Positions 1-23,550 of a stretch of DNA of 64,000 bases are shown here, piece by piece. The number at the start of each line of letters is the position of its first letter. Position 1 is the first letter of the stretch. A program made the position numbers and the translations under genes. The DNA lies in NCBI GenBank assembly GCA_964019135.1, contig OZ025257.1:29123260-29187259 (forward strand). Reading direction: 5' to 3'. A model generated the notes under the pieces. It had not been told where the DNA came from and searched no databases. It saw only the letters and a list, made by a program, of their open reading frames with translations. The DNA comes from Arenicola marina (lineage: Eukaryota; Annelida; Polychaeta; Arenicolidae).

Positions 1-3000
1 CAACTACCAGGTCATCCACTTGGTACACTAAGGGGAGTCCTGGATCAACTACCAGGTCAGCCACGTGGTACACTAAGGCGAGTCCTGGATCAACTACCGG
101 GTCAGCCACGTGGTACACTAAGGGGGGTCCTGGATCAACTACCGGGTCAGCCATGTGGTACGCTAAGGGGGGTCCTGGATCAACAACCGGGTCAGCCACG
201 TGGTATACTAAGGGGAGTCCTGGATCAACTACCGGGTCTGCCACGTGGTATACTAAGGGGAGTCCTGGATCAACTACCAGGTCAGCCACGTGGTACACTA
301 AGGGGAGTCCTGGATCAACTACCGCGTCAGCCATGTGGTACACTAAGGGGGGTCCTGGATCAACTACCGGGTCTGCCACGTGGTATACTAAGGGGAGTCC
401 TGGATCAACTACCGGGTCATCCACTTGGTACACTAAGGGGAGTCCTGGATCAACTACCAGATCAGCCACGTGGTACACTAAGGGGGGTCCTGGATCAACT
501 ACCGGGTCAGCCATGTGGTACACTAAGGGGAGTCCTGGATCAACTACCGGGTCAGCCATGTGGTACGCTAAGGGGAGTCCTGGATCAACTACCGGGTCAG
601 CCACTTGGTACACTAAGGGGAATCCTGGATCAACTACCAGATCAGCCACGTGGTACACTAAGGGGGGTCCTGGATCAACTACCGGGTCAGCCATGTGGTA
701 CGCTAAGGGAGGTCCTGCATCAACAACCGGGTCAGCCACGTGGTATACTAAGGGGAGTCCTGGATCAACTACTGGGTCAGCCACGTGGTACACTAAGGGG
801 AGTCCTGGATCAACTATCGGGTCAGCCACGTGGTACACTAAGGGGAGTCCTGGATCATCTACCGGGTCATCCACTTGGTATACTAAGGGGAGTCCTGGAT
901 CAACTACCGGGTGAACCACGTGGTACACTAAGGGGAGTCCTGGATCAACTACCGGGTGAGCCACGTGGTACACTAAGGGGAGTCCTGGATCAACTACCGG
1001 GTGAACCACGTGGTACACTAAGGGGAGTCCTGGATCAACTACCGGGTGAGCCACGTGGTACACTAAGGGGAGTCCTGGTTCAACTACCGGTCATCCACTT
1101 GGTACACTAAGGGGAGTCCTGGATCAACTACCAGGTCATCCACTTGGTACACTAAGGGGAGTCCTGGATCAACTACCAGGTCAGCCACGTGGTACACTAA
1201 GGGGAGTCCTGGATCAACTACCGGGTCAGCCACGTGGTACACTAAGGGGGGTCCTGGATCAACTACCGGGTCAGCCATGTGGTACGCTAAGGGGAGTCCT
1301 GGATCAACAACCGGGTCAGCCACGTGGTATACTAAGGGGAGTCCTGGATCAACTACCGGGTCTGCCACGTGGTATACTAAGGGGAGTCCTGGATCAACTA
1401 CCAGGTCAGCCACGTGGTACACTAAGGGGGGTCCTGGATCAACTACCGGGTCTGCCATGTGGTATACTAAGGGGAGTCCTGGATCAACTACCGGGTCAGC
1501 CATGTGGTACACTAAGGGGGGTCCTGGATCAACTACCGGGTCTGCCACGTGGTATACTAAGGGGAGTCCTGGATCAACTACCGGGTCTGCCACGTGGTAC
1601 ACTAAGGGGGGTCCTGGATCAACTACCGGGTCAGCCATGTGGTATACTAAGGGGGGTCCTGGATCAACTACCAGATCAGCCACGTGGTACACTAAGGGGG
1701 GTCCTGGATCAACTACCGGGTCAGCCATGTGGTACACTAAGGGGAGTCCTGGATCAACTACCGGGTCAGCCATGTGGTACGCTAAGGGGAGTCCTGGATC
1801 AACTACCGGGTCAGCCACTTGGTACACTAAGGGGAATCCTGGATCAACTACCAGATCAGCCACGTGGTACACTAAGGGGGGTCCTGGATCAACTACCGGG
1901 TCAGCCATGTGGTACGCTAAGGGAGGTCCTGGATCAACAACCGGGTCAGCCACGTGGTATACTAAGGGGAGTCCTGGATCAACTACTGGGTCAGCCACGT
2001 GGTACACTAAGGGGAGTCCTGGATCAACTATCGGGTCAGCCACGTGGTGCACTAAGGGGAGTCCTGGATCATCTACCGGGTCATCCACTTGGTATACTAA
2101 GGGGAGTCCTGGATCAACTACCGGGTGAACCACGTGGTACACTAAGGGGAGTCCTGGATCAACTACCGGGTGAGCCACGTGGTACACTAAGGGGAGTCCT
2201 GGATCAACTACCGGGTGAACCACGTGGTACACTAAGGGGAGTCCTGGATCAACTACCGGGTGAGCCACGTGGTACACTAAGGGGAGTCCTGGATCAACTA
2301 CCGGTCATCCACTTGGTACACTAAGGGGAGTCCTGGATCAACTACCAGGTCATCCACTTGGTACACTAAGGGGAGTCCTGGATCAACTACCAGGTCAGCC
2401 ACGTGGTACACTAAGGGGAGTCCTGGATCAACTACCGGGTCAGCCACGTGGTACACTAAGGGGGGTCCTGGATCAACTACCGGGTCAGCCATGTGGTACG
2501 CTAAGGGGGGTCCTGGATCAACAACCGGGTCAGCCACGTGGTATACTAAGGGGAGTCCTGGATCAACTACCGGGTCTGCCACGTGGTATGCTAAGGGGAG
2601 TCCTGGATCAACTACCAGGTCAGCCACGTGGTACACTAAGGGGGGTCCTGGATCAACTACCGGGTCTGCCATGTGGTATACTAAGGGGAGTCCTGGATCA
2701 ACTACCGGGTCAGCCATGTGGTACACTAAGGGGGGTCCTGGATCAACTACCGGGTCTGCCACGTGGTATACTAAGGGGAGTCCTGGATCAACTACCGGGT
2801 CTGCCACGTGGTACACTAAGGGGGGTCCTGGATCAACTACCGGGTCAGCCATGTGGTATACTAAGGGGGGTCCTGGATCAACTACCGGGTCAGCCATGTG
2901 ATATACTAAGGGGAGTCCTGGATCAACTACCAGGTCAGCCACGTGGTACACTAAGGGGGGTCCTGAATCAACTACCGGGTCTGCCACGTGGTATACTAAG

Positions 3001-3707
3001 GGGAGTCCTGGATCAACTACCGGGTCTGCCACGTGGTATACTAAGGGGAGTCCTGGATCAACTACCGGGTCTGCCACGTGGTATACTAAGGGGAGTCCTG
3101 GATCAACTACCGGGTCTGCCACGTGGTATACTAAGGGAAGTCCTGGATCAACTACCGGGTCAGCCATGTGGTACGCTAAGGGGGGTCCTGGATCAACAAC
3201 CGGGTCAGCCACGTGGTATACTAAGGAGAGTCCTGGATCAACTACCGGGTCAGCCATGTGGTACGCTAAGGGGGGTCCTGGATCAACTACCGGGTCAGCC
3301 ATGTGGTACGCTAAGGGGGGTCCTGGATCAACTACCGGGTCTGCCATGTGTTACACTAAGGGGAGTTCTGGATCAACTACCGGGTCAGCCACGTGGTACA
3401 CTAAGGGGAGTCCTGGATCAACTACCGGGTCAGCCATGTGGTACGCTAAGGGGGGTCCTGGATCAACTACCGGGTCAGCCATGTGGTACACTAAGGGGAG
3501 TCCTGGATCAACTACCGGGTCAGCCATGTGGTACGCTAAGGGGAGTCCTGCATCAACTACCGGGTCAGCCATGTGGTACACTAAGGGGAGTCCTGGATCA
3601 ACTACCGGGTCAGCCACGTGGTACACTAAGGGGAGTCCTGGATCAACAACCGGGTCAGCCATGTGGTACACTAAGGGGAGTCCTGGATCAACTACCGGGT
3701 CTGCCTA
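1..3707. repeat. 45-bp minisatellite with ~27-unit higher-order period (PHKB intron)
   Basis: About 82 tandem copies of a 45-bp unit, core GGTACACTAAGGGGAGTCCT then GGATCAACTACCGGGTCAGC. The array starts before the window and ends at GGGTCTGCCTAG, about 100 bp before the first PHKB exon. A distinctive 1-bp-shorter unit (CTACCGGTCATCC) occurs at about 1081 and 2295, 1214 bp apart (27 units minus one base). This marks a higher-order duplication. Because 45 is a multiple of three, several frames on both strands stay open for hundreds of codons (WYTKGSPGSTTGSAT on +); I treat those as artefacts. Confidence 0.97.
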
Positions 3708-3807: not shown

Positions 3808-3992
3808 GAACTGCAGACGAAGTCGACATATGACATCTGCCAATACCTGCAGACTGCCGACAACCAATACGCGCAGGCGCAATGCCTGCAAGTGCTGCTC
3901 AACAGGGAGGGTCTCTACCACCGGGTCAACGGCGGAACTGTGGAGGACAGACTGCTGAGCCTCGGGCGTAAGGCGGGCACCTTACAGCAATG
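3808..3992 (+). CDS. PHKB: PHKB exon (first in window)
   Basis: The acceptor follows a T-rich tract ending in AACAG. The exon starts in phase 0 with [14 protein letters not shown] and ends in TG, with GTGAGT as donor, so the last codon (Trp) is split after two bases. It corresponds to the KPTHEIL...AGSQKLW region of human PHKB. Its last ~23 bases and donor are the founding copy of the 32-bp minisatellite that follows. Confidence 0.9.
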
Positions 3993-6900
3993 GTGAGTGG
4001 TAAGGCGGGCACCTTACAGCAATGGTGAGGCGGACACCTTACAGCACTGGTGAGTGTTAAGGCGGGCACCTTACAGCAATGGTGAGTGGTGAGGCGGGCA
4101 CCTTACAGCAATGGTGAGTGGTAAGGCGGACACCTTACCACACTGGTGAGTGGTAAGGCGGGCACCTTACAGCAATGGTGAGTGGTAAGGCGGACACCTT
4201 ACCACACTGGTGAGTGGTAAGGCGGGCACCTTACAGCACTGGTGAGTGGTAAGGCGGGCACCTTACAGCAATGGTGAGTGGTAAGGCGGGCACCTTACAG
4301 CAATGGTGAGTGGTAAGGCGGACACCTTACAGCACTGGTGAGTGGTAAGGCGGGCACCTTACAGCACTGGTGAGTGGTAAGGCGGGCACCTTACAGCAAT
4401 GGTGAGTGGTAAAGCGGACACCTTACAGCACTGGTGAGTGGTAAGGCGGGCACCTTACAGCAATGGTGAGTGGTGAGGCGGGCACCTTACAGCAATGGTG
4501 AGTGGTAAGGCGGGCACCTTACAGCAATGGTGAGTGGTAAGGCGGACACCTTACCACACTGGTGAGTGGTAAGGCGGGCACCTTACAGCACTGGTGAGTG
4601 GTAAGGCGGGCACCTTACAGCACTGGTGAGTGGTAAGGCGGGCACCTTACAGCAATGGTGAGTGGTGAGGCGGGCACCTTACAGCAATGGTGAGTGGTAA
4701 GGCGGGCACCTTACAGCAATGGTGAGGCGGACACCTTACAGCACTGGTGAGTGTTAAGGCGGGCACCTCACAGCAATGGTGAGTGGTGAGGCGGGCACCT
4801 TACAGCAATGGTGAGTGGTAAGGCGGACACCTTACCACACTGGTGAGTGGTAAGGCGGGCAACTTACAGCACTGGTGAGTGGTAAGGCGGGCACCTTACA
4901 GCACTGGTGAGTGGTAAGGCGGACACCTTACAGCACTGGTGAGTGGTAAGACGAGCGCATGGATGGGAACAGGAGACATAGGATCTGTTACAGACACTGA
5001 CCTTTTACTTCCAGGGCGGTGGTACGGTTCTGCGCGAGTCTGCTGAACAAAGTGGTGGACAGTCTGGCTCCTTCCATCACCGCAGTGCTTGTCCGAGGAA
5101 AACAGGTACCTGTGTAATGTTATAGCTGTGTTGGTAGTGTACTAAGTTATAGCTGTATTGGTAGTGTACTAAGTTATAGCTGTATTGGTGGTGTACTGAG
5201 TTATAGCAGTATTGGTAGTGTATTAAGTTATAGCTGTATTCGTAGTGTACTGAGTTATAGCAGTATTGGTAGTGTATTAAGTTATAGCTGTATTGGTAGT
5301 GTACTAAGTTATAGCTGTATTGGTAGTGTACTAAGTTATAGCTATATTGGTGATGTACTAAGTTATAAGTGTATTGGTTGTGTACTGAGTTATAGCTGTA
5401 TTGGTAGTGTACTGAGTTATAGCTGTATTGGTAGTGTACTGAGTTATAGCTGTGTTGGTAGTGTACTGAGTTATAGCTGTATTGGTAGTGTACTGAGTTA
5501 TAGCTGTATTCGTAGTGTACTGAGTTATAGCAGTATTGGTAGTGTACTGAGTTATAGCTGTATTCGTAGTGTACTGAGTTATAGCAGTATTGGTAGTGTA
5601 TTAAGTTATAGCTGTATTGGTAGTGTACTAAGTTATAGCTGTATTGGTAGTGTACTAAGTTATAGCTATATTGGTGGTGTACTAAGTTATAAGTGTATTG
5701 GTTGTGTACTGAGTTATAGCTGTATTGGTAGTGTACTGAGTTATAGCTGTATTGGTAGTGTACTGAGTTATAGCTGTATTGGTAGTGTACTGAGTTATAG
5801 CTGTATTGGTAGTGTACTGAGTTATAGCTGTATTGGTAGTGTACTGAGTTATAGCTGTATTGGTAGTGTACTGAGTTATAGCTGTATTGGTAGTGTACTG
5901 AGTTATAGCTGTATCGGTAGTGTACTAAGTTATAGCTATATTGGTGGTGTACTAAGTTATAAGTGTATTGGTTGTGTACTGAGTTATAGCTGTATTGGTA
6001 GTGTACTGAGTTATAGCTGTATTGGTAGTGTACTAAGTTATAGCTATATTGGTGGTGTACTAAGTTATAAGTGTATTGGTTGTGTACTGAGTTATAGCTG
6101 TATTGGTAGTGTACTGAGTTATAGCTGTATTGGTAGTGTACTGAGTTATAGCTGTATTGGTAGTGTACTGAGTTATAGCTGTATTGGTAGTGTACTGAGT
6201 TATAGCTGTATTGGTAGTGTACTGAGTTATAGCTGTATTGGTAGTGTACTGAGTTATAGCTGTATTGGTAGTGTACTGAGTTATAGCTGTATTGGTGGTG
6301 TACTGAGTTATAGCTGTATTGGTAGTGTACTGAGTTATAGCTGTATTGGTAGTGTACTGAGTTATAGCTGTATTGGTAGTGTACTGAGTTATAGCTGTAT
6401 TGGTAGTGTACTGAGTTATAGCTGTATTGGTAGTGTACTGAGTTATAGCTGTATTGGTAGTGTACTGAGTTATAGCTGTATTGGTAGTGTACTGAGTTAT
6501 AGCTGTATTGGTAGTGTACTGAGTTATAGCTGTATTGGTAGTGTACTGAGTTATAGCTGTATTGGTAGTGTACTGAGTTATAGCTGTATTGGTAGTGTAC
6601 TGAGTTATAGCTGTATTGGTAGTGTACTGAGTTATAGCTGTATTGGTAGTGTACTGAGTTATAGCTGTATAGGTAGTGTACTGAGTTATAGCTGTATTGG
6701 TAGTGTACTGAGTTATAGCTGTATTGATAGTGTACTGAGTTATAGCTGTATTGGTAGTGTACTGAGTTATAGCTGTATTGGTAGTGTATTAAGTTATAGC
6801 TGTATTGGTAGTGTACTAAGTTATAGCTGTATTGGTAGTGTACTAAGTTATAGCTGTATTGGTAGTGTACTACGTTATAGCTGTATTGGTGGTGTACTAA

Positions 6901-9900
6901 GTTATAGCTGTATTGGTAGTGTACTGAGTTATAGCTGTATTGGTAGTGTACTGAGTTATAGCTGTATTGGTAGTGTACTGAGTTATAGCTGTATTGGTAG
7001 TGCATTAAGTTATAGCTGTATTGGTAGTGTACTGAGTTATAGCTGTATTGGTAGTGTACTAAGTTATAAGTGTATTGGTAGTGTACTGACTTAAAGCTGT
7101 ATTGGTAGTGTACTGAGTTATAGCTGTATTGGTAGTGTACTAAGTTATAAGTGTATTGGTAGTGTACTGAGTTATAGCTGTATTGGTAGTGTACTGAGTT
7201 ATAGCTGTATTGGTAGTGTACTGAGTTATAGCTGTGTTGGTAGTGTACTGAGTTATAGCTGTATTGGTAGTGTACTGAGTTATAGCTGTATTGGTAGTGT
7301 ACTAAGTTATAGCTGTATTGGTAGTGTACTGCGTTATAGCTGTATTGATAGTGTACTGAGTTATAGCTGTATTGGTAGTGTACTGAGTTATAGCTGTATT
7401 GGTAGTGTACTGAGTTATAGCTGTATTGATAGTGTACTGAGTTATAGCTGTATTGGTAGTGTACTGAGTTATAGCTGTATTGGTAGTGTATTAAGTTATA
7501 GCTGTATTGGTAGTGTACTAAGTTATAGCTGTATTGGTAGTGTACTAAGTTATAGCTGTATTGGTAGTGTACTACGTTATAGCTGTATTGGTGGTGTACT
7601 AAGTTATAGCTGTATTGGTAGTGTACTGAGTTATAGCTGTATTGGTAGTGTACTGAGTTATAGCTGTATTGGTAGTGTACTAAGTTATAGCTGTATTGGT
7701 AGTGTACTGAGTTATAGCTGTATTGGTAGTGTACTAAGTTATAGCTGTATTGGTAGTGTACTACGTTATAGCTGTATTGGTGGTGTACTAAGTTATAGCT
7801 GTATTGGTAGTGTACTGAGTTATAGCTGTATTGGTAGTGTACTGAGTTATAGCTGTATTGGTAGTGTACTAAGTTATAGCTGTATTGGTTGTGTACTGAG
7901 TTATAGCTGTATTGGTAGTGTACTGAGTTATAGCTGTATTGGTAGTGTACTGAGTTATAGCTGTATTGGTAGTGCATTAAGTTATAGCTGTATTGGTAGT
8001 GTACTGAGTTATAGCTGTATTGGTAGTGTACTAAGTTATAAGTGTATTGGTAGTGTACTGACTTAAAGCTGTATTGGTAGTGTACTGAGTTATAGCTGTA
8101 TTGGTAGTGTACTAAGTTATAAGTGTATTGGTAGTGTACTGAGTTATAGCTGTATTGGTAGTGTACTGAGTTATAGCTGTATTGGTAGTGTACTGAGTTA
8201 TAGCTGTGTTGGTAGTGTACTGAGTTATAGCTGTATTGGTAGTGTACTGAGTTATAGCTGTATTGGTAGTGTACTGAGTTATAGATGTATTGGTAGTGTA
8301 CTGTGTTATAGCTGTATTGGTAGTGTACTGAGTTATAGCTGTATTGGTAGTGTACTGAGTTATAGCTGTAGTGGTAGTTTACTAAGTTATAGCTGTATTG
8401 GTAGTGTACTGAGTTATAGCTGTATTGGTAGTGTACTAAATTATAAGTATATTGGTACTGTACTAAGTTATAGCTGTATTGGTAGTGTATTATGTTATAG
8501 CTGTATTGGTAGTGTACTAAGTTATAGCTGTATTGGTAGTGTACTAAGTTATAAGTGTATTGGTAGTGTACTGAGTTATAGCTGTATTGGTAGTGCACTA
8601 AGTTATAGCTGTATTGGTAGTGTACTGAATTATAGCTGTATTGGTAGTGTACTAAGTTATAGCTGTATTGGTAGTGTACTGAGTTATAACTGTATTGGTA
8701 GTGCATTAAGTTATAGCTGTATTGGTAGTGTACTGAGTTATAGCTGTATTGGTAGTGTACTAAGTTATAAGTGTATTGGTAGTGTACTGAGTTATAGCTG
8801 TGTTGGTAGTGCACTAAGTTATAGCTGTATTGGTAGTGTACTGAATTATAGCTGTATTGGTAGTGTACTGAGTTATAGCAGTATTGGTAGTGTACTGAGT
8901 TATAGCTGTATTGGTAGTGTACTGAGTTATAGCTGTATTGGTAGTGTACTGAGTTATAGCTGTATTGGTAGTGTACTGAGTTATAGCTGTATTGGTAGTG
9001 TACTGAGTTATAGCTGTATTGGTAGTGTACTGAGTTATAGCTGTATTGGTAGTGTACTGAGTTATAGCTGTATTGGTAGTGTATTAAGTTATAGCTGTAT
9101 TGGTAGTGTACTAAGCTATAGCTATATTGGTGGTGTACTAAGTTATAAGTGTATTGGTAGTGTACTGAGTTATAGCTGTATTGGTAGTGTACTGAGTTAT
9201 AGCTGTATTGGTGGTGTACTGAGTTATAGCTGTATTGGTAGTGTACAAAGTTATAACTGTATTGGTAGTGTACTAAGTTATAGCTATATTGGTGGTGTAC
9301 TAAGTTATAAGTGTATTGGTAGTGTACTGCGTTATAGCTGTAGTGGTAGTTTACTAAGTTATAGCTGTATTGGGAGTGTACTGAGTTATAGCTATATTGG
9401 TAGTGTACTAAGTTATAGCTGTATTGGTAGTGTACTAAGTTAATACTGTATTGGTAGTGTATTAAGTACACCACCAATACAGCTATAACTTAGTACACTA
9501 ACAATATAGCTATAACTTAGTACACTACCAATACAGCTATAACTCAGTACACTACTAATGCAGCTATAACTCAGTACACTACCAATACAGCTATAACTTA
9601 GTACACTACCAATACAGCTATAACTTAGTACACTACCAATACAGCTATAACTTAGTACACTAACAATATAGCTATAACTTAGTACACTACCAATACAGCT
9701 ATAACTCAGTACACTACTAATGCAGCTATAACTCAGTACACTACCAATACAGCTATAACTTAGTACACTACCAATACAGTTATAACTCAGTACACTACTA
9801 GTATAGCTAGTAAGCTATATTGGTAGTGTATTAAGTTATAGCTGTATTGGTAGTGTACTAAGTTATAGCTGTATTGATAGTGTACTAAGTTATAGCTGTA

Positions 9901-12900
9901 TTGGTAGTGTACTAAGGTATGGCTGTATTGGTAGTGTACTAAGTTAAAGCTATATTGGTGGTGTACTAAGTTATAAGTGTATTGTTAGTGTACTAAATTA
10001 TAGTTATATTGGTAGTGTATTAAGTTATAGCTGTATTGGTAGTGTACTAAGTTATAGCTGTATTGGTAGTGCATTAAGTTATAACTGTCTGTAGTAAATT
10101 ATAATTCTGTATTTGGTGTCTGTACGCTAAGTTATAACTGTATATTGTGTGTGTTACAGCTGTCTGTATTGGGTGTAATGTATTAAGGTACCGGTTTCTA
10201 CAGTATCTGTATTATCTCCACCTCCTTAAGTGCGGGTGGCTATATTGTGTCCGTGCTAAGCCTGTCGTGCCCTGCCCCAGGTGACGGTGGGTGTATTCGG
10301 GCGAGAGGAGGAGGTAATAGACAAGCCGAGCGCCCCGCAGGACATCAAGAACATTCTGTACAGCCGCTGCTTCCCCTACGACATCATCCAGGCCGTGCTC
10401 CAGCAGGAGCTACTCATCAACATCGGCAAGTTCATCAGCACCGACCCCGAGCTCTTCGCAGGCATCCTCAAGATCAGGATCGGGTGAGTCGCGGCGTGCG
10501 AGGGCCCCGTGGCCTAGTATTTACGGCTCTTGTCGAGTGTGGTCTGCTAGGTCACCCCGTGGCCTAGTATTTACGGCTCTTGTCCAGTGTGGTCTGCTAG
10601 GTCACCCCGTGGCCTAGTATTTACGGCTCTTGTCCAGTGTGGTCTGCTAGGTCACCCCGTGGCCTAGTATTTACGGCTCTTGTCGAGTGTGGTCTGCTAG
10701 GTCACCCCGTGGCCTAGTATTTACGGCTCTTGTCCAGTGTGGTCTGCTAGGTCACCCCGTGGCCTAGTATTTACGGCTCTTGTCCAGTGTGGTCTGCTAG
10801 GTCACCCCGTGGCCTAGTATTTACGGCTCTTGTCGAGTGTGGTCTGCTAGGTCACACCATGGCCTAGTATTTACGGCTCTTGCCCAGTGTGGTCTGCTAG
10901 GTCACACCATGGCTTAGTATTTACGGCTCTTGTCCAGTGTGGTCTGCTAGGTCACCCCGTGGCCTAGTATTTATGGTTCTTGTCGAGTGTGGTCTGCTAG
11001 GTCACCCCGTGGCCTAGTATTTACGGCTCTTGTCGAGTGTGGTCTGCTAGGTCACACCATGGCCTAGTATTTACGGCTCTTGCCCAGTGTGGTCTGCTAG
11101 GTCACACCATGGCCTAGTATTTACGGCTCTTGCCCAGTGTGGTCTGCTAGATCACCCCGTGGCCTAGTATTTATGGCTCTTGTCCAGTATGGTCTGCTAG
11201 GTCACCCCGTGGCCTAGTATTTATGGCTCTTGTCGAGTGTGGTCTGCTAGGTCACCCCGTGGCCTAGTATTTACGGCTCTTGTCGAGTGTGGTCTGCTAG
11301 GTCACCCCGTGGCCTAGTATTTATGGCTCTTGTCGAGTGTGGTCAGCTAGGTCACCCCGTGGCCTAGTGTTTATGGCTCTTGTCGAGTGTGGTCTGCTAG
11401 GTCACCCCGTGGCCTAGTATTTACGGCTCTTCGCCAGTGTGGTCTGCTAGGTCACCCTGTGGCCTACTTTTTACGGCTCTTGTCGAGTGTGGTCTGCTAG
11501 GGCCCCCCGTTGCCTAGTATTTACTGCTCTTGTCGAGTGTGGTCAGCTAGGTCACCCCGTGGCCTAGTATTTACGGCTCTTGTCGAGTGTAGTCTGCTAG
11601 GTCACCCCGTGGCCTAGTATTTACGGCTCTTGTCGAGTGTGGTCTGCTAGGTCACCCTGTGGCCTACTTTTTACGGCTCTTGTCGAGTGTGGTCTGCTAG
11701 GGCCCCCCGTGGCTTAGTATTTACGGTTCTTGTCGAGTGTAGTCTGCTAGGTCACCTCGTGGTCTAGTATTTACTGCTCTTGTCGAGTGTGGTCAGCTAG
11801 GTCACCCCATGGCCTAGTATTTACGGCTTTTGTCGAGTGTGGTCTGCTAGGTTACCCCGTGGCCTAGTTTTTATGGCTCTTGTCGAGTGTGGTCTGCTAA
11901 GTCATCCCATGGCTTAGTATTTACGGCTTTTGTCGAGTGTGGTCTGCTAGGTCACCCCGTGGCCTAGTATTTACGGCTTTTGTCGAGTGTGGTCTGCTAG
12001 GTCACCCCGTGGCCTAGTATTTACGGCTCTTGTCGAGTGTGGTCTGCGAGGTCATCCCGTGGCCTAGTATTTACGGCTCTTGTGGAGTGTGGTCTGCTAG
12101 GTCACACCATGGCCTAGTATTTACGGCTCTTGTCGAGTGTGGTCTGCTAGGTCACTCCGTGGCCTAGTATTTACGGCTCTTGTCGAGTGTGGTCTGCGAG
12201 GTCACCCCGTGGCCTAGTATTTACGGCCCTTGTGATCTGCTGAGGTGAGGTCATCGGTATATACATGACTTCAAATTCCCCCTGTTATAATATCAATTGT
12301 TAAGGTCAATGGTCCTCGTGTAAATGAGTGATTCAACCCATTGATGATGTGTCCAGGTGGTTGATTCAAGCCATGAAGCTCGAGTGGAACTACACACACA
12401 AGGAGGAAGTCAGTTTGAACTCCCTGTCGCCGAGTGCCATTAAGAAGCTCCTGCTGCAGGTGCTGACCAAGCCGGCACCAGACCAGGACTACAGGTCAGT
12501 GACCCCCGCCACGCCAGGACTACAGGTCAGTGACCCCCGCCACGCCAGGACTACAGGTCAGTGACCCCCGCCACGCCAGGACTACAGGTCAGTGACCCCC
12601 GCCACGCCAGGACTACAGGTCAGTGACCCCCGCCACGCCAGGATTACAGGTCAGTGACCCCCGCCACGCCAGGACTACAGGTCAGTGACCCCCGCCACGC
12701 CAGGACTACAGGTCAGTGACCCCCGCTGCGCCAGGACTACTGGTCAGTGACCCCCGCCACGCCAGGACTACAGGTCAGTGACCCCCGCCACGCCAGGACT
12801 ACAGGTCAGTAACCCCCGCCACGCCAGGACTACAGGTCAGTGACCCCCGCCACGCCAGGACTACAGGTCAGTGACCCCCGCCAGGCCAGGACTACAGGTC

Positions 12901-15900
12901 AGTGACCCCCGCCACGCCAGGACTACAGGTCAGTGACCCCCGCCACGCCAGGACTACAGGTCAGTGACCCCCGCCACGCCAGGACTACAGGTCAGTGACC
13001 CCCGCCACGCCAGGACTACAGGTCAGTGACCCCCGCCACGCCAGGACTACAGGTCTGTGACCCCCGCCACGCCAGGACTACAGGTCAGTGACCCCCCCAG
13101 GCCAGGACTACAGATCAGTGACCCCCCCAGGCCAGGACTACAGGTCAGTGACCCCCGCCAGGCCAGGACTACAGGTCAGTGACCCCCGCCACGCCAGGAC
13201 TACAGGTCAGTGACCCCAGTGACTATTTAGTGACCCATAGTGAGGTTTGGACCTTCAGTGGTGCAATGGACTTAGACCCGCCATATCTACACTGTTGCCA
13301 TCTGCACTAATTAACCCTGGCAAAGCCTGTACAATTATTTATTTTACATTAGAAAGATACTTGTATATTATGGGTTGATTCTGATTAACTGGTTAGGCAC
13401 ATATAAAGGCTGAATATCGGTTTTCAGATCTGTTGTGTGGAATCGCCAGTTGGACGGAGCTCTGAATCGCGTGCCAAGCGACTTCTACGACAAGGTTTGG
13501 CAGATTCTAGAGCGCACGCCGTCCGGCCTGAAGGTGGCCGGCTACTTACTGCCGCAGGTCAGTCACCAGTTATCATGGTTGTATCTGAGCTTAGGATCAT
13601 TTAATTTTACCAGTTACATGACCTGCCAACAGGTGGAACATTTCGTTTTAATGCATTTCTTGACCAAGCAAGGGTCCATCTCAGTTCGAGGATTGCATTC
13701 GTCGGTCTGTCGGCTTGGTGTGCTAATGGTGAACATCGTAGCATAATTAGGTGTCAACGTTTTTAACCGTCAATGACGTCATATTGTAAAAAAAAACATA
13801 ATGCCCGCAGCGCCTACGGTTGTCAGTTATCACTGCCCTCAGCGCCTGCTGTTGTCAGTGGTCACTGCCCTCAGCGCCTGCTGTTGTCAGTGGTCACTGC
13901 CCTCAGTGCCTGCTGTTGTCAGTGGTCACTGCCCTCAGCGCCTGCTATTGTCAGTGGTCGCTGCCCTCAGCGCCTACGGTTGTCAGTGATCACTGTCCTC
14001 AAGGCCTGCTGTTGCCAGTGGTCACTGCCCTCAGTGCCTACGGTTGTCAGTGATCACTGCCCTCAGCGCCTACGGTTGTCAGTGGTCGTTGCCCTCAGCG
14101 CCTACGATTGTCAGTGATCACTGTCCTCAGGGCCTGCTGTTGTCAGTGGTCGCTGCCCTCAGCGCCAACGGTTGTCAGTGATCACTGCCCTCAGCACCTG
14201 CGGTTGTCAGTGGTCGCTGCCCTCAGCGCCAACGGTTGTCAGTGATCACTGTCCTCAGCGCCTGCGGTTGTCAGTGGTCGCTGCCCTCAGCGCCAACGGT
14301 TGTCAGTGGTGGTTGCCCTCAGCGCCTACGGTTGTCAGTGATCACTGCCCTCAGCGCCTGCGGTTGTCAGTGGTCGCTGCCCTCAGCGCCAACGGTTATC
14401 AGTGATCACTGTCCACAGCGCCTGCGGTTGTCAGTGGTCGCTGCCCTCAGCGCCTACGGTTGTCAGTGGTCGCTGCCCTCAGCGCCAACGGTTGTCAGTG
14501 ATCACTGTCCTCAGCGCCTGCGGTTGTCAGTGGTCGCTGCCCTCAGCGCCTACGGTTGTCAGTGATCACTGCCCTCAGCGCCTGCGGTTGTCAGTGGTCG
14601 CTGCCCTCAGCGCCAACGGTTGGCAGTGATCACTGTCCTCAGGGCCTGCGGTTGTCAATGGTCGCTGCCCTCGGCGCCTACGGTTGTCAGTGGGCACAGC
14701 CTTCAGCGCCTACGGTTGTCAGTGATCACTGCCCTCAGCGCCTGCGGTTGTCAGTGGTCGCTGCCCTCAGCGCCAACGGTTGTCAGTGATCACTGTCCTC
14801 AGCGCCTGCGGTTGTCAGTGGTCGCTGCCCTCAGCGCCTACGGTTGTCAGTGGTCGCTGCCCTCAGCGCCAACGGTTGTCAGTGATCACTGTCCTCAGCG
14901 CCTGCGGTTGTCAGTGGTCGCTGCCCTCAGCGCCTACGGTTGTCAGTGATCACTGCCCTCAGGGCCTGCGGTTGTCAGTGGTCGCTGCCCTCAGCGCCAA
15001 CGGTTGTCAGTGATCACTGTCCTCAGGGCCTGCGGTTGTCAGTGGTCGCTGCCCTCAGCGCCAACGGTTGTCAGTGATCACTGTCCTCAGCGCCTGCGGT
15101 TGTCAGTGGTCGCTGCCCTCAGCGCCAACGGTTGTCAGTGATCACTGTCCTCAGCGCCTGCGGTTGTCAGTGATCACTGTCCTCAGCGCCTACGGTTGTC
15201 AGTGGTCGCTGCCCTCAGCGCCTACGGTTGTCAGTGATCACTGCCCTCAGCGCCTACGGTTGTCAGTGGTCGCTGCCCTCAGCGCCTACGGTTGTCAGTG
15301 GTCGTTGCCCTCAGCGCCTACGGTTGTCAGTGATCACTGCCCTCAGCGCCTACGGTTGTCAGTGGTCGCTGCCCTCAGCGCCTACGTTTGTCAGTGATCA
15401 CTGCCCTCAGCGCCTACGGTTGTCAGTGATCACTGTCCTCAGGGCCTACTGTTGTCAGTGATCACTGCCCTCAGCGCCTACGGTTGTCAGTGATCACTGT
15501 CCTCAGGGCCTGCGGTTGTCAGTGATCACTGTCCTCAGCGCCTACGGTTGTCAGTGGTCGCTGCCCTCAGCGCCTACGGTTGTCAGTGATCACTGCCCTC
15601 AGCGCCTACGGTTGTCAGTGGTCGCTGCCCTCAGCGCCTACGGTTGTCAGTGATCACTGCCCTCAGCGCCTACGGTTGTCAGTGGTCGTTGCCCTCAGCG
15701 CCTACGGTTGTCAGTGATCACTGCCCTCAGCGCCTACGGTTGTCAGTGGTCGTTGCCCTCAGCGCCTACGGTTGTCAGTGATCACTGCCCTCAGCGCCTA
15801 CGGTTGTCAGTGGTCGCTGCCCTCAGCGCCTACGTTTGTCAGTGATCACTGCCCTCAGCGCCTACGGTTGTCAGTGATCACTGTCCTCAGGGCCTACTGT

Positions 15901-17906
15901 TGTCAGTGATCACTGCCCTCAGCGCCTACGGTTGTCAGTGATCACTGTCCTCAGGGCCTGCGGTTGTCAGTGATCACTGTCCTCAGCGCCTACGGTTGTC
16001 AGTGGTCGCTGCCCTCAGCGCCTACGGTTGTCAGTGATCACTGCCCTCAGCGCCTACGGTTGTCAGTGGTCGCTGCCCTCAGCGCCTACGGTTGTCAGTG
16101 ATCACTGCCCTCAGCGCCTACGGTTGTCAGTGGTCGTTGCCCTCAGCGCCTACGGTTGTCAGTGATCACTGCCCTCAGCGCCTGCGGTTGTCAGTGGTCG
16201 TTGCCCTCAGCGCCTGCGGTTGTCAGTGGTCGTTGCCCTCAGCGCCTGCGGTTGTCAGTGGTCGTTGCCCTCAGCGCCTACGGTTGTCAGTGGTCGTTGC
16301 CCTCAGCGCCTGCGGTTGTCAGTGGTCGTTGCCCTCAGCGCCTGCGGTTGTCAGTGGTCGTTGCCCTCAGCGCCTGCGGTTGTCAGTGGTCGTTGCCCTC
16401 AGCGCCTGCGGTTGTCAGTGGTCGTTGCCCTCAGCGCCTACGGTTGTCAGTGATCACTGCCCTCAGCGCCTGCGGTTGTCAGTGATCACTGCCCTCAGCG
16501 CCTGCGGTTGTCAGTGGTCGTTGCCCTCAGCGCCTGCGGTTGTCAGTGGTCGTTGCCCTCAGCGCCTACGGCATTTAGTGCCTACGATGAGTATTTAATT
16601 CTTACGATGCCGTTATGACGGAATTGAATATGAAAAAAACTTGTTTGGCAACATCCTCTAGATTTTCGTCATCTTCACACGTCCCGACCATGCCTTCTTG
16701 TTTCACATATCGTCCATCCACTGAACGGCCTTGATTGTTCTCTGTCTCAGCAACCCACGCTCTCCGACATGACCCAGTACGAGCTCAACTTCTCACTGCT
16801 CGTCGAACAAATGCTGAGCAAGATTGTGGATCCGGCATACCGGCAGATCATTGTGGAGGTAGGCCGTGGGTCGCTCTGTGTCCTCGCTGGTCTGTCGTAT
16901 CAGTGTATTATTCAGTGAAGCGACGAGTTTCAAATGTAGCGGCGATGCGAGGGTAAATTATGAAATTAGTAGTCATGATAGACCCATGTGTGGGTGATTT
17001 GAAGGCCCATGTTTGTCAGACCCGCCGTGATAGACCCATGGGTGGGCGACTTGAAGGCCCATGTTTGTCAGACCCGCCATGATAGACCCATGTGTGGGCG
17101 ACTTGAAGCCCCGTGTTTGTCAGACCCGCCATGATAGACCCATGTGTGGGTGACTTGAAGGCCCATGTTTTTCAGACCCGCCATGATAGACCCATGTGTG
17201 GGCGACTAGAAGCCCCGTGTTTGTCAGACCCGCCATGATAGACCCATGTGTGGGTGACTTGAAGGCTCATGTTTGTCAGTCCCGCCATGATAGACCCATG
17301 TGTGGGCGACTTGAAGGCCCGTGTTTGTCAGACCCGCCATGATAGACTTATGTTGATCAGATCAAGTCTTGTGGATATCCATATGATGTGGAACCTTTAC
17401 TCGGTTGCAGAGCTTCATGATAGTGTCGACCATACTGGACAGGAATCCGGAGTTATCTTTCAAGAAGCCGGTCGACATGGATAAGGTCAGTATATAATGT
17501 GTTATAATGATAAATTATTGCACACATTGGAGTATGTTTGCACTTCTGTCCATACAATGCTCTGATATGAGAAACCTCAATACCCCAAGTTAACCATTGA
17601 TTCGAATCATTCATGGCCTCATTTAGTGAACGTCAGTATTGTGTGTTGGGCATTGCTTCACTATTATAATAGCTCACGTATTACTCCTGTTGCTTGCCGC
17701 AGCTGGTCCACAGTGCCTTCGAGTCCTTCCAGCGGGACCAGAGTCGGCTGGAGGAGAAGGAGAAGAAGGACGACATGCTGGAGTTCTACAACACGCGGCC
17801 CAACATCCAGCACGGCACGACCAGCTACCTGGCCAGGGCGCTGCTGGACAACCTGCTGGACGGCGAGGTCAAGCTCGTCGACGAGCTGTCCTGTTGCCTC
17901 AGCTAA
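3808..17906 (+). CDS. PHKB: Phosphorylase b kinase regulatory subunit beta, C-terminal third (8 exons)
   Basis: PHKB is a regulatory subunit of the phosphorylase kinase holoenzyme (alpha, beta, gamma, delta)4, which activates glycogen phosphorylase in the cytosol. Eight exons (3808-3992, 5015-5105, 10281-10483, 12357-12494, 13428-13557, 16751-16858, 17411-17485, 17703-17906) sum to 1134 nt: 377 codons plus stop, with all phases matching. The product resembles remembered vertebrate PHKB through the end, for example [68 protein letters not shown] and [18 protein letters not shown] rather than PHKA is favoured by the QPTLSDM block and the short end. The rest of the gene (about 700 residues in the family) lies upstream of the window. 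Six of the seven internal introns, and the one upstream, are largely minisatellite. The C-terminus CCLS fits a CaaX prenylation box. The reading is from family memory, not a search. Confidence 0.93.
3970..4955. repeat. 32-bp minisatellite copying the exon end and 5' splice site
   Basis: About 30 copies of a 32-bp unit: GGTGAGTGGTAAGGCGGGCA plus CCTTACAGCAAT. The founding copy is the end of the 3808-3992 exon with its donor (GCACCTTACAGCAATG|GTGAGT). Each complete unit therefore repeats that exon tail and a good 5' splice site. Some copies lack the GTGAGTGGTAAG piece. The array occupies nearly the whole 1-kb intron. Confidence 0.97.
5015..5105 (+). CDS. PHKB: PHKB exon
   Basis: The acceptor is TTTTACTTCCAG. 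The first base completes the split Trp codon, giving W-A-V-V-R-F-C-A-S. The exon ends in phase 0 with VLVRGKQ before donor GTACCT. It matches the human AVRYGAAF...FLVHGKQ segment. No start or stop of its own; 91 nt. Confidence 0.9.
5113..10095. repeat. 27-bp minisatellite array with an internal inverted block
   Basis: About 180 copies of a 27-bp unit (GTTATAGCTGTATTGGTAGT plus GTACTGA) fill the 5.2-kb intron, starting ~8 bp after the donor at 5106. From about 9468 to 9810 the units run in the opposite orientation, then revert. The reverse strand stays open for 1466 codons (YSYNSVHYQ repeats) only because 27 is divisible by three. Degenerate copies and short unique DNA fill 10096-10280 up to the acceptor. 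Confidence 0.96.
10281..10483 (+). CDS. PHKB: PHKB exon
   Basis: Acceptor CTGCCCCAG; the exon begins [13 protein letters not shown] and ends in the conserved [12 protein letters not shown], with the Gly codon split after GG before donor GTGAGT. The 203 nt and its phase agree with both neighbours. This is one of the most conserved PHKA/PHKB stretches in the window. Confidence 0.94.
10496..12235. repeat. 50-bp minisatellite (PHKB intron)
   Basis: About 35 copies of a 50-bp unit (GGCCTAGTATTTACGGCTCT, TGTCGAGTGTGGTCTGCTAG, GTCACCCCGT). It begins about 12 bp after the exon donor at 10484 and ends about 120 bp before the next exon. Copies differ by scattered substitutions (TGTCGAG versus TGTCCAG or TGCCCAG; CCCCGT versus CACCAT), and the variants recur in runs, suggesting multi-unit duplications. 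Confidence 0.97.
12357..12494 (+). CDS. PHKB: PHKB exon
   Basis: Acceptor TGTGTCCAG; the first G completes the Gly codon and gives [11 protein letters not shown], like human GWIIHAMEYEL. It continues [14 protein letters not shown] (human LSPSEVKQLLLDIL). It ends in CTACAG before donor GTCAGT. That border is reiterated as a 31-bp tandem repeat directly downstream. Confidence 0.92.
12481..13215. repeat. 31-bp minisatellite copying the exon end and 5' splice site
   Basis: About 23 copies of a 31-bp unit (CCAGGACTACAGGTCAGTGA plus CCCCCGCCACG). The first copy is the 3' end of the 12357-12494 exon (CCAGGACTACAG) and its donor GTCAGTGA. The exon tail and donor are thus reiterated throughout the first 720 bp of the intron. 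Variants include GCCAGG and CCCCCCAGG near the end. Confidence 0.97.
13428..13557 (+). CDS. PHKB: PHKB exon
   Basis: Acceptor ATCGGTTTTCAG. The exon completes a split Arg codon and reads [14 protein letters not shown], then [15 protein letters not shown] and GYLLPQ, matching human RRQIDGSLNRTP...KHLPQ. It ends in phase 0 at donor GTCAGT. Confidence 0.93.
13802..16570. repeat. 32-bp minisatellite with discrete unit types (PHKB intron)
   Basis: About 86 copies of a 32-bp unit: CCTACGGTTGTCAGTGGTCG plus CTGCCCTCAGCG. Units differ mainly at the first triplet region (CCTACGG, CCTGCGG, CCAACGG, CCTGCTG) and at the middle (GATCACT versus GGTCGCT or GGTCGTT), so the array reads as a string of a few unit types. 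Longer stretches of the string repeat, for example around 15300-15560 and 15730-16010. Confidence 0.96.
16751..16858 (+). CDS. PHKB: PHKB exon
   Basis: Acceptor CTGTCTCAG; 36 codons in phase 0. The exon begins [19 protein letters not shown] and ends AYRQIIVE before donor GTAGGC. The block is almost the same as human [23 protein letters not shown] and is the best single identifier of the gene. Confidence 0.95.
16974..17345. repeat. 52-bp minisatellite (PHKB intron)
   Basis: About seven copies of a 52-bp unit (CATGATAGACCCATGTGTGG, GCGACTTGAAGGCCCATGTT, TGTCAGACCCGC) in the intron between the 16751-16858 and 17411-17485 exons. Copies differ at a few positions. Confidence 0.95.
17411..17485 (+). 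CDS. PHKB: PHKB exon
   Basis: Acceptor TCGGTTGCAG; 25 codons in phase 0: [15 protein letters not shown] and then KKPVDMDK before donor GTCAGT. It corresponds to human LLMVVSIVLERNPELEF...VDLDR. Confidence 0.92.
17703..17906 (+). CDS. PHKB: PHKB terminal coding exon with stop
   Basis: Acceptor GCTTGCCGCAG; 67 codons plus TAA. It reads [51 protein letters not shown] and ends SCCLS. It matches the human PHKB tail, which ends in CLIS. The final CCLS is a CaaX motif; rabbit muscle PHKB is known to carry a farnesylated C-terminal cysteine, so prenylation is a reasonable inference. The last ~33 nt are the first copy of a 46-bp repeat that runs into the 3' UTR. Confidence 0.95.
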   Translation: MVHSAFESFQRDQSRLEEKEKKDDMLEFYNTRPNIQHGTTSYLARALLDNLLDGEVKLVDELSCCLS

Positions 17907-18310
17907 CGGGTGCGGTCTGCTCGTCGATGAGCTGTCCTGTTGCCTCAGCTAACGGGTGCGGTCTGCTGGTCGACGAGCTGTCCTGTTGCCTCAGCTAACG
18001 GGTGCGGTCTGCTGGTCGATGAGCTGTCCTGTTGCCTCAGCTAACGGGTGCGGTCTGCCGGTCGATGAGCTGTCCTGTTGCCTCAGCTAACGGGTGCGGT
18101 CTGCTGGTCCATGAGCTGTCTTGTTGCCTCAGCTAACGGGTGCGGTCTGCTGGTCGATGAGCTGTCCTGTTGCCTCAGCTAACGGGTGCGGTCTGCCGGT
18201 CGATGAGCTGTCCTGTTGCCTCAGCTAACGGGTGCGGTCTGCTGGTCCATGAGCTGTCCTGTTGCCTCAGCTAACGGGTGCGGTCTGCTGGTCGATGAGC
18301 TGTCCTGTTG
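17874..18310. repeat. 46-bp repeat built on the PHKB stop codon (3' UTR)
   Basis: About nine copies of a 46-bp unit (CTCGTCGACGAGCTGTCCTG, TTGCCTCAGCTAACGGGTGC, GGTCTG). The first copy carries the PHKB C-terminal codons and TAA stop; later copies lie in the 3' UTR. Minor changes are GTCGATG versus GTCGACG and GTCCATG. Since 46 is not a multiple of three, later copies do not extend the reading frame. Confidence 0.96.
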
Positions 18311-20900
18311 CCTCCGTTAATGATTGTCAGGGTGCGGAACGGAGAGGGAAGGGCGTAATGGATCAGTATAGGATAAATGTTATTCTTCGAAGTGAACGAC
18401 TGTCACTTAGATCAAGTGGTAATTACTAAGTAGTACGTGAGCTATACTGAAACAGTTCCCCCGGGGAACATGGCTGGTGTCCAACCTAACCCTGCCCGTT
18501 GGGGTGATAGGACTATGTATGGGTTAAAGTGTCCTTGGAACCAACCAATATCTCGCGCTGCACTGACATACAGCGTGAAGGCTGCAGTGAACAGCGCACG
18601 CTGCATTGCAAGACCTCCGACCGCCCGGAGGACACGCTCAAGGACATCCGCCAGTCGTACCGTTTATGAATACAAAGTTTTGATTTTCCTTCCCTTGTAA
18701 ATGTTAAATACGGTCAGATTAACAATCCGCGTTCATTTGCTCTAGCGATTTGTATTATAATGTGTGAGCCATGTTTTGTTATCACGATGTCTATGACTCT
18801 GTGAAAGGGGAGGCAGACCTCGTTAATGTATATAGTGCGGTTTATAGTGCCGTGTGTATTGCTGACCGGGGAGGGGGGGGGGCAGTAGTTGGCCTCGTCG
18901 ACGCGGCGTCACCACATCACAGCGGACGCCATCCAGCGGGTGGTAGTGTGGAAGGGGTGGAGGTAAGCGGTCCCCCCCTCAATCCCCGTGCGCCACAAGA
19001 TCGTGAAGTCCTCCGCCCCCCCCCCCTCCCGCCCCGGCGTTTGAGAAATCATGGATCTGCCCAAAGATAGTGCTATAGACGTCGTATCAAGTGGACGATG
19101 CTAAGAGTTTGCTGACCTGCAGTATTATTATGTGTCGTGTTCATTTGCCTTTTGTTTGGAATGTTTATCCCGTGTGACAAAGTATTGATCTTGATTTTAT
19201 AGTTGTCAGCGATTCGCTCAAATGTTGAAGTTACTGGTTGGTCTGTGTTTTCATATGAGCTGTTTGTAGCATAGAACTAATTTTAAAGTGAATTTCTACC
19301 CGACTATTCAGTTACATTTTGCGCTTACGTGCCTCAATAAAGTAGATACCTTGCTGAGGGGCCGCCTTGGTTCGAATGTGACATATCCATGTCTTTATGC
19401 AGAGGTTATACCCGTCCTTTCCCCGTCTCGTGCTACACGCAGTCATCAAAGTTGATCAGATCATTATAACCATAAGCCCTTGACGAATAAACATGTTGTC
19501 TAAGTTGAAGTTGTGATGCAGAACGATCATTGCTGGAGTATCGTGTCACTGTGGATAACAACCGGGTGACTACTGGGATCTCACTCCGTGCTCCAACTCC
19601 TCCCAAACCGGTCTGCAATGGTTTCATATTCATCCCAAACCGGTCGCCATGTTTCCTACTGGCCGTAGCGACTGCTATTCGGCTGCGCCATGGTGGGTGT
19701 ACGAATCAACGCTTGTGCGCAGGTGGGGGGAGTCCACATGTAGCAACTGAATACGCCAGGGATCACGCGGGTAGTGATGATATTTGGTTGATAGTCACTA
19801 CATGTGAATGATGTGAATCAGCACGACATGTACATCTGGCAGCCATCTTGGCAATTAAACACAAACCCGCGGTAACAGTTTAAGTTACTCATACAGCAAT
19901 AGTGTAACTTTTTAACACATTTATTATATGCAATAGTTAACTTTGTTTGGCAAAAATGGTGCGTCCCATTTGGGAATGTATTTTTTTTGTGGTAGATCAT
20001 CAAAATTCGAGCATCGCAGTTTTTTGCCCTTTAACATGTAAGATACCCATTTCCAACTATATTTTGAGTTAACATTCTTACAGTCAGACATTGTGTCCAT
20101 ATTTTTCCAAGATACATGTATCTACAAAATCATAATATATGTGGAGAGGTGCTGTACGTATGAGCAGCTTTAAGTAACTCCGGTGCGTGTTGACGCTTTA
20201 ATAGAGGGACTTCCGGTTACTACGACGATGACGTTACGTGTGACCTTTTGGTCAAAGCTTTGTCTCGTCAAATGTGTCCTCAATTGTCACACGTCTAATT
20301 TTTAACTTGTTAACCGAGCGATCTAGATCCGTAATCATAGCAAAGAGTTAACTAATAGTGTCGTATATATCTGATTTGTTTAGAAACAAGTACGGATAAT
20401 AATGTTAATAGCGCACACGGCTTGAACGGCTGGTCTGAATAACACTTGTGTTGTCAATTACATGGACATCATTGGCAAAACAGACAAGTGAAACTGTACC
20501 GTTTTCTTATGGTTTGTATGTTTGACACATTGACTGCCAAATACGTCATGCTTAGCTATGATCGGACCCTGGTCAGCACCTTAAAGGCACGACTGAAAGG
20601 ATTGCGGCGGGACTGTCCTATAGTAGATTACTATTATGTGATAGACTGTGTGCTGAATTAAGTTAGTTTGGTACGCCAAGCAGTCACTTGATGCATTAAA
20701 ACCAACGATGGGATTCTTGCCTTGGCTATTGTTGTTTGTTTTATTGTTCTTGGAGGTCCATATGCTAGAGTGGTCTGGTGGACTGTTTCACTCTGGTATT
20801 GCTTGCATCTCCGCAGTCCTATTCCCCGCATATAAGAAACAATCACTTATCGTGGCTTAAGGTTAAATGTAAGTCAATAATGATTCCCCAACGCGTACCC
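18311..20900. other. PHKB 3' UTR / intergenic, no gene recognised
   Basis: I see no coding homology here. It holds short chance open frames, a G/C-rich stretch at 18870-19045 and two AATAAA motifs. The start of a short dispersed motif (GTGAGCTATACTGAAACAGT, ~18437) recurs near 25528 and 26623. Confidence 0.6.
19336..19341 (+). promoter_or_regulatory. Possible PHKB polyadenylation signal AATAAA
   Basis: AATAAA about 1.4 kb past the PHKB stop; a second AATAAA lies at 19486-19491. Either could end the PHKB transcript. No transcript evidence is available here, so this is only a sequence-level candidate. Confidence 0.35.
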
Positions 20901-21795: not shown

Positions 21796-22360
21796 TGATC
21801 CCAGCTCTGACTTATGCCCAAACAGTAGGCGGCGTAATACTCCGAGTGACTCTCATAGCTTCCAGGTTCAATTAGCGTAAGAGTGAGAACCTTGTAGAGA
21901 CGCATAGCCCGGTGTTTCCATACAGTTTCTCATTTTCCCTTTTCAATGGCTGTAAACACTTGGACGAAGAGCACAGTACTCTACACAAGCTATCTCCCAA
22001 TGAACATAATTGCAGATCTATGGAAAGAAGTACAGGTACGTGTATCTACAAATAACGTTTAGATATTTTTAAATTATTTGTAGAAATCTATAAATGATTT
22101 GGAGATATCCATCCGCACACATTTTTTCTTTTTTTAAATTCCGCGTGCCATACTTTTTCTACTTTGATGAATACGTTTTTAGAGATGTCCTGGACTAAAA
22201 GCCGTAACTGGCATGTTGAAACTTATTTGTTGCAAAATTATTTTAAAACTACAAAAGAACGTAGCACCAACACTTTACACCACACCACAGCGTTATTAAA
22301 CTTCAGACGTCAAGATACTTATTCCTGAGTGTTTACTCGTTTTGAATCTCCATAATTTGT
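21796..22360. other. Intergenic, nothing recognised
   Basis: AT-rich unique sequence without a supported gene or repeat. Confidence 0.5.
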
Positions 22361-22371
22361 CAAAATGCTGC

Positions 22372-23550
22372 CCTCCCTACGACTCGAAACCTAAGCCGCG
22401 GCCATTCCGCTACCCTCCCTACGACTCGAAACCTAAGCCGCGGGCCACCCCGCTACCCACCCTACGACGCGAAACCTCGGCCGCGGCCATCCCGCTACCC
22501 TCCCTACGAAGCGAAACCTCGGCCGCGGCCATCCCGCTACCCTCCCTACGAAGCGAAACCTCGGCCGCGGCGCTACCCATCCTACGACTCGAAACCCCGG
22601 CTGCGGCCACCCCGCTACCCTCCCTGCGACGCGAAACCCCGGCCGCGGCCACCCCGCTACCCTCCCTCCGACGCAAAACCTCGGCCGCGGCCATCCCGCT
22701 ACCCTCCCTCCGACGCAAAACCTCGGCCGCGGCCACCCCGCTACCCACCCTACGACGCGAAACCTCGGCCGCGGCCACCCCGCTACCCTCCCTACGACGC
22801 GAAACCTCGGCCGCGTCCATCCTGCTACCCTCCGTACGACGCGAAACCACTGCCGCTGCCACCCCGCTACCCTCCCTACGAAGCGAAACCTCGGCCGCGG
22901 CCACCCCGCTACCCATCCTACGATGCGAAACCCCGGCCGCGGCCACCCCGCTACCCACCCTACGACGCGAAACCATGGCCGCGGCCACCCCGCTACCCTC
23001 CCTACGACGCAAAACCATGGCCGCGGCCACCCCGCTACCCATCCTACGACGCGAAACCCCGGCCGCTGCCACCCCGCGACCCTCCCTACAACGCGAAACC
23101 CCGGCCGCGGCCATCCCGCTAGCCTTCCTCCGACGCAAAACCATGGCCGCGGCCACCCCGCTACCCATCCTACGACGCGAAACCCCGGCCGCTGCCACCC
23201 CGCGACCCTCCCTACAACGCGAAACCCCGGCCGCGGCCATCCCGCTACCCTCCCTACGACGCGATACCCCGGCCGCTGCCATCTCGCTACCCTCCCTACG
23301 ACGCGAAACCCCGGCCGCTGCCATCTCGCTACCCTCCCTACGACGTGAAACCCCGGCGGCTGCCATCCCGCTACCCACCCTACAACGCAAAACCTCGGCC
23401 GCGGCCACCCCGCTACCCTCCCTACGATGCGAAACCCCGGCCGCGTCCATCCCGCTACCTTCCCTACGACTCGAAACCACTGCCGCTGCCACCCCGCTAC
23501 GCTCCCTACGACGCGAAACCCCGGCCGCGGCCACCCCGCTACCCCCGCCT
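22372..23550. repeat. 42-bp GC-rich minisatellite, open in several frames
   Basis: About 28 copies of a 42-bp unit (CCCTACGACGCGAAACCCCG, GCCGCGGCCACCCCGCTACC, CT). Three frames are open because 42 is a multiple of three: RETPAAATPLPSLR and YPPYDAKPRPRPPR on +, and an Ala/Arg/Ser-rich frame on -. The Tyr/Pro/Lys frame superficially resembles adhesive-protein repeats, but it shifts phase near 22440. No start context, signal peptide or splice context supports a gene. I call it a repeat. Confidence 0.9.

Follow-up and report, generated by a model that had tools for sequence, protein, structure and literature searches.

Minisatellite-like duplications of exon/intron borders are known as mirages from the Adh3, globin and PGBD5 genes of amphioxus (PMC3087553, PMC3902484; both seen as excerpts). 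The excerpted text gives unit sizes of 10-72 bp in Adh3 and of 150-160 bp in globins (PMC3087553), and the Adh3 data together with globin RT-PCR suggest there that mirages leave regular splicing undisturbed (PMC3087553; echoed in PMC3902484). The same excerpts discuss intron gain through tandem duplications carrying AG/GT proto-splice sites (PMC3087553). In an earthworm metallothionein gene, intronic minisatellites have been described, and the available part of that report mentions no copied splice sites (PMC12783039). No annelid mirage was apparent in the literature searched on mirages and splice-site minisatellites, the coverage of which is partial.

Here, we analyzed a stretch of 64,000 nucleotides from the annelid Arenicola marina (the window), in which a 32-bp tandem array lies across the 3' end of exon 16 (E16) of PHKB, the gene for phosphorylase kinase beta. 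Both the splice site and the end of the coding exon are part of its units, which are of minisatellite size, and the gene continues, as judged at the level of the protein, with the exon-attached copy. Judged against the excerpted amphioxus reports, the likeness extends to tandem units over an exon edge and its splice signal, to the existence of donor and acceptor types and to a conserved gene that continues across the array. Unlike the mirages of these excerpts, the range of which is cephalochordate, the present arrays have an annelid host, taxon being no part of the definition. They also differ in scale: the four donor arrays of PHKB hold 24 to about 120 units, compared with 2 to 7 in the excerpted amphioxus globin and PGBD5 arrays, introns consist of decoys by up to 98%, and a single gene has six copied edges, one of them a stop-codon edge. 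As in intron gain by tandem duplication, the PHKB arrays would start from a duplication with a splice signal; unlike there, the copies sit within an intron.

The genome carrying the window comprises 867 Mb. It contains four matches above the curated cut-off to the annelid erythrocruorin linker domain Eryth_link_C, for which 14 prokaryotic control genomes gave none. On the mitochondrial contig (15,942 bp), cox1 was identified by profile, and 12 protein genes were recognized by eye on one strand from reading frames and tRNAs, in what we take to be the annelid ground order; atp8 was not seen by eye on this contig. Two reverse-strand tRNA predictions (Ile and Val) duplicate forward ones and were taken as spurious. 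Gene order and linker-domain matches both mark the host as an annelid and led us to reject amphioxus, the host considered initially. In several small contigs of the assembly G000 (e.g. C390, C504, C465, C443, C330, C652 and C536), matches to kinesins and kinases contain TAG/TAA in frame but no TGA, as under a ciliate code; these contigs look like ciliate contaminants or symbionts.

E16 occupies positions 3808..3992 of the window on the forward strand, as do the other PHKB exons and arrays of the window given below, and ends in the donor ATG|GTGAGT. The array spans 3968..4952 and contains 31 donors including the authentic one. TRF, run on the window, reported 3968-4950 with a 32-bp unit, 31.2 copies and 90% matches, and register analysis found 31 donor-bearing units with spacings of 32 (n=28) or 25 bases (n=2), which bears out the initial annotation of an exon 3' end and 5' splice site copied about 30 times in a 32-bp repeat. 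Exon and repeat unit share common sequence in register from 3968; the unit extends 25 bases back into the exon, and the true exon end sits inside unit 1. Donors read CTG|GTGAGT in 15 units, ATG|GTGAGT in 14, the first of which is the authentic site, and ATG|GTGAGG in 2, and most units hold a second donor-like site, either GTG|GTAAGG (21) or GTG|GTGAGG (4). Three exact 15-mers recur (CACCTTACAGCAATG, 15 times; CACCTTACAGCACTG, 10 times; CACCTTACCACACTG, 4 times), and a 29-nt donor-region pattern with up to 3 mismatches matched 29 times in the window compared with a mean of 0 in 100 shuffles. The shortened unit with GTGAGGCGGACACC, which gives the 25-base spacing, occurs twice at a distance of about 700 bases. 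This pair suggests that duplication of a block of units was one growth step of the array.

Joined to the next exon, 3808-3992 reads ...AGTLQQW/AVVRF... and matches 8jfk_B, phosphorylase kinase beta, with an E-value of 2.4e-10. The match came from the spliced exon pair searched against PDB; a single exon searched against PDB and two spliced exons scanned against Pfam gave no match. When the 15 exons E9-E23 were joined in silico, the resulting C-terminal 715 aa ran parallel to 8jfk_B, in the same order, up to the C-terminus (E 9.8e-226), and collinearity holds across the E16-E17 junction when donor 1 is used. The coordinates and exon border proposed initially are correct. The array is followed by E17 (5015..5105), E18 (10281..10483), E19 (12357..12494, donor CAG|GTCAGT), E20 (13428..13557), E21 (16751..16858), E22 (17411..17485) and the last exon E23 (17703..17906), which ends in ...VDELSCCLS and a stop codon. 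Overall, 22 PHKB exons spread over 65 kb were located, and the expected exons E4 and E8 were not found in this search. One exon is present in two versions, at C10:29089233-29089392 (SVGMAKAALEAINGMNVF...) and 29093587-29093746 (SIGMAKAALESVNGANLF...), C10 being the contig that carries the window; both are in frame with E5 and E7 and represent candidate mutually exclusive exons. Intron 1 (C10:29078075-29083065) holds long frames of 253, 983 and 274 residues that appear non-LTR retrotransposon-like by eye.

Going beyond the initial annotation, we found that six exon edges of PHKB are copied, that of E16 among them: the donors of E14, E15, E16 and E19, the acceptor of E10 and the stop-codon end of E23. 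In a copy test that searched each exon-end 24-mer up to 1.5 kb downstream, 4 of 21 donors were copied (E14, 3 copies; E15, 32; E16, 30; E19, 23), as was the E23 end including the stop codon (8 copies). By the same kind of test, one of 21 acceptors was copied, that of E10, with 6 copies in this test and 13 when the upstream TTTCAG|GA copies were listed, and none of the 22 exon middles. Over the whole arrays, the copies beyond the authentic donor number 109 for E15, 30 for E16, 23 for E19 and 119 for E14, the last count resting on the consensus of the array, since a strict register caught 13 of about 120 units. The 45-bp donor mirage of E15 (C10:29122034-29126964, of which 1..3705 lie in the window) starts upstream of the window, 21 bases ahead of the last E15 base (C10:29122055), and its unit joins the codons for ESWINY to a donor that mostly reads CGG|GTCAGC or CAG|GTCAGC. 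The 31-bp donor mirage of E19 (12483..13217) has 24 units with the authentic one, and the 46-bp array at E23 (17873..18314; 9.6 units by TRF) repeats the end of the coding sequence together with the stop codon. Arrays account for 98, 98, 94 and 78% of introns 14, 15, 16 and 19, respectively; at intron 15, this means that 5.0 kb consist almost entirely of copies of its own donor unit.

Further arrays in PHKB are devoid of exon sequence. Those in intron 17 (27 bp, 5119..10088) begin 14 bases past the last E17 base, the 50-bp array in intron 18 (10505..12233) begins 22 bases past the last E18 base, and an array at E12 begins 11 bases past its last base. We considered the intron 17 and 18 arrays as decayed mirages and rejected this, since the copy test gave no copies and exon sequence is not visible in the units. 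The arrays in introns 12, 17 and 18 nevertheless tend to start beside donors, which could be due to constraint on the acceptor side or to a duplication hotspot at donors.

Copied donors recur in other genes. Among myosin heads, 6 of 45 donors were positive by script and 5 were kept (acceptors 1/45, middles 0/45); at one myosin exon (L032), up to 24 more copies of DPIGGHINNYLLEK plus donor lie within 1.5 kb. For PHKA, 2 of 9 donors scored and 1 was kept (acceptors 0/9, middles 0/9), and for TCP1, a set picked by place with its sequence unseen beforehand, 3 of 20 scored and 2 were kept (acceptors 1/20, middles 0/20). Together with PHKB (4/21), 15 of 95 donor ends were thus positive before rows were dropped. 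Three were removed: myosin L027, where the array starts at the donor and leaves the exon uncopied; TCP1 L058, where the likeness is weak; and PHKA 4867458, where the copied windows fall beyond the matched exon. The TCP1 acceptor (L074) is marginal, with few exon bases only, and an extra acceptor mirage (L049) that was seen by eye was left uncounted, its exon being absent from the match list. Pooled over the four gene sets, copies were found at 12 of 95 donors (95% interval 7 to 21%), 3 of 95 acceptors and 0 of 96 middles (Fisher test: donors vs middles, p 0.00016; donors vs acceptors, p 0.028; acceptors vs middles, p 0.12). This donor rate is a rough guide, since the sets were chosen for conservation rather than randomly and the rules differ slightly: 45 of 77 myosin matches entered, namely those with enough flank on both sides; 20 of 49 TCP1 matches entered (the first 21 rows minus one long single-frame match) with a flank of 450 bases; and PHKA windows extended up to 40 bases past the ends of the tblastn matches, which is less strict than the rule for myosin and TCP1. 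The 8 of 74 donors outside PHKB give a fairer estimate, because PHKB prompted the count.

We then compared the copies as potential donors. The U1 snRNA genes of this genome have the canonical 5' end ATACTTACCTG, which makes U1 duplex energies an apt measure of the decoys; 41 U1 snRNA genes of identical score form a tandem cluster at G000:C12:556678-593202, mostly 616 bp apart. The authentic E16 donor pairs with U1 at -10.3 kcal/mol, which is equalled or exceeded by 28 of the 30 decoys. This agrees with the initial view of the copies as near-equal donors from which one must be selected. At E19 and E14, 20 of 23 and 109 of 119 decoys likewise pair at least as well as the authentic site, compared with 24 of 109 at E15, where the A at -2 is lost in most copies.

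The outcome of using a later copy was expected to be a frequent frame shift, the unit length not being a multiple of three. This is not the main effect: all 30 later E16 donors lead to the same TGA at 3994-3996, directly past the exon, where the intron-split codon TGG is followed by TGA (3991..3996) whenever donor 1 is not used. Only donor 1 therefore yields the PHKB protein, and use of several donors would mean truncated messages and not proteins of varying frame. Later copies likewise run into a stop in 109 of 109 cases at E15 and in 12 of 12 at E14 (those in the stricter register); at E19, 21 reach a stop and 2 shift the frame. PHKA provides a contrast, as its second donor copy, read from sequence and translation, would add 16 residues in frame without a stop.

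We propose, with a probability of roughly 80%, that the E16 array is a mirage minisatellite that arose by tandem duplication over the exon border, grew, and has been tolerated through the exon-attached donor. A short tandem duplication would have straddled the 3' border of E16 and then expanded via unequal exchange or slippage; the one assembly showed neither an intermediate of this duplication nor a second allele. Unit 1 would remain under coding constraint as exon end and donor, with the other 30 units as intronic decoys. Continuity of the protein requires donor 1, which the PHKB message would accordingly use, and mis-spliced message would decay through the common early stop. Splicing presumably keeps choosing the true donor among near-identical decoys. 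Copies past the exon-attached donor would then be spliced out, which would render them nearly neutral and free to grow, and copied stop codons would be tolerated because the first stop wins. The lower frequency of acceptor copies would also be explained by tolerance through use of the exon-attached donor; alternatively, branch point and polypyrimidine tract may need more intact intron. Most likely, the mirages found here are neutral by-products of tandem duplication.

The strong U1 pairing of the E16 decoys and their shared stop would also fit a model in which many copies are used, making the array a poison-donor switch or a source of noise that lowers PHKB output via stop-containing messages. 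Under equal competition, however, the 119, 109, 30 and 23 copies in introns 14, 15, 16 and 19 would leave almost no intact message, and the conservation of the PHKB coding sequence up to the C-terminus speaks against routine use of decoys, so that we regard this model as unlikely. RNA structure might instead mask the decoys, with GTAAGG/CCTTAC inverted repeats forming hairpins that leave the first donor alone open. A single E16 unit indeed folds into a 6-bp hairpin at -7.2 kcal/mol, but the authentic donor was not more open than the copies, of which 16 of 30 at E16, 22 of 23 at E19 and 17 of 32 tested at E15 were as open or more so. Moreover, the first 320 nt of the E16 array are of ordinary stability (z -1.71; 7 of 100 shuffles were equally stable). 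We consider masking of this kind very improbable.

Hardly more credit, and if anything slightly less, is due to the idea that the arrays are kept since dense U1 sites guard introns against premature cleavage and polyadenylation or aid elongation. Besides the canonical U1, it draws on retention of the GT in 118 of 119 (E14), 101 of 107 (E15), 31 of 31 (E16) and 23 of 24 (E19) units in register, that is, about as well as the average unit position or better; the GT columns of E14 and E16 are somewhat above average, which could hint at selection to keep GT. The nine donor columns together exceed the rest of the unit at E19 (0.986 vs 0.962), yet fall below it at E14 (0.900 vs 0.938), E15 (0.914 vs 0.957) and E16 (0.939 vs 0.958), and the arrays of introns 17 and 18, which lack copied donors, are as large as the E16 array or larger. 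What the well-kept GT does imply is that decoys are not visibly removed. Finally, tandem arrays are difficult to assemble, but the units differ among themselves, and the same behaviour is seen for unrelated units at unrelated exons, which makes an assembly artefact the least probable account, with a chance close to nil.

The rule by which the spliceosome picks one of several identical donors has long been sought, mostly in studies with few artificial copies. In vitro, the intron-proximal copy of duplicated donors is reportedly preferred. Such a preference, which counts against our proposal, would lead one to expect that late decoys are used heavily and that PHKB fails; this conflict is itself an interesting test. 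If our sample holds, about one in eight exon ends of an annelid genome would carry its own donor in tandem, with up to about 119 extra copies, decoys predicted to match the true site in strength and the gene still working; we advance tentatively, as an idea that may well fail, a strict position rule by which the exon-attached copy, the most upstream one, prevails, contrary to simple intron-proximal competition. If true, this would turn the genome into a natural donor-competition experiment at very many exons, and since the natural arrays offer 3 to about 120 competing donors of graded divergence, routine long-read RNA from a single species could reveal the rule. Mirages extend beyond amphioxus, and as far as the partly accessible literature goes, the additions to those known are a second phylum, larger copy numbers, several copied edges within a single gene and a stop-codon edge. 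The arrays also suggest that mirage exons will cause difficulties for gene annotation and for the mapping of junctions with short reads.

Other repeats neighbour PHKB in the window. At 22300-23682, a 460-codon open frame is built from units of 42 bp, whose 14 residues are, judged by eye, rich in proline; it may be either the exon of a repetitive protein or a non-coding array. Between 28000 and 51400, repeats of a 224-bp family alternate with C-rich 34-bp arrays in the manner of a large satellite region. A scan of the whole window against Rfam gave no match at the gathering threshold. Elsewhere in the genome, one chromosome (G000:C3) has dozens of kinase-like reading frames at many places; they resemble one another and appear to be uninterrupted.
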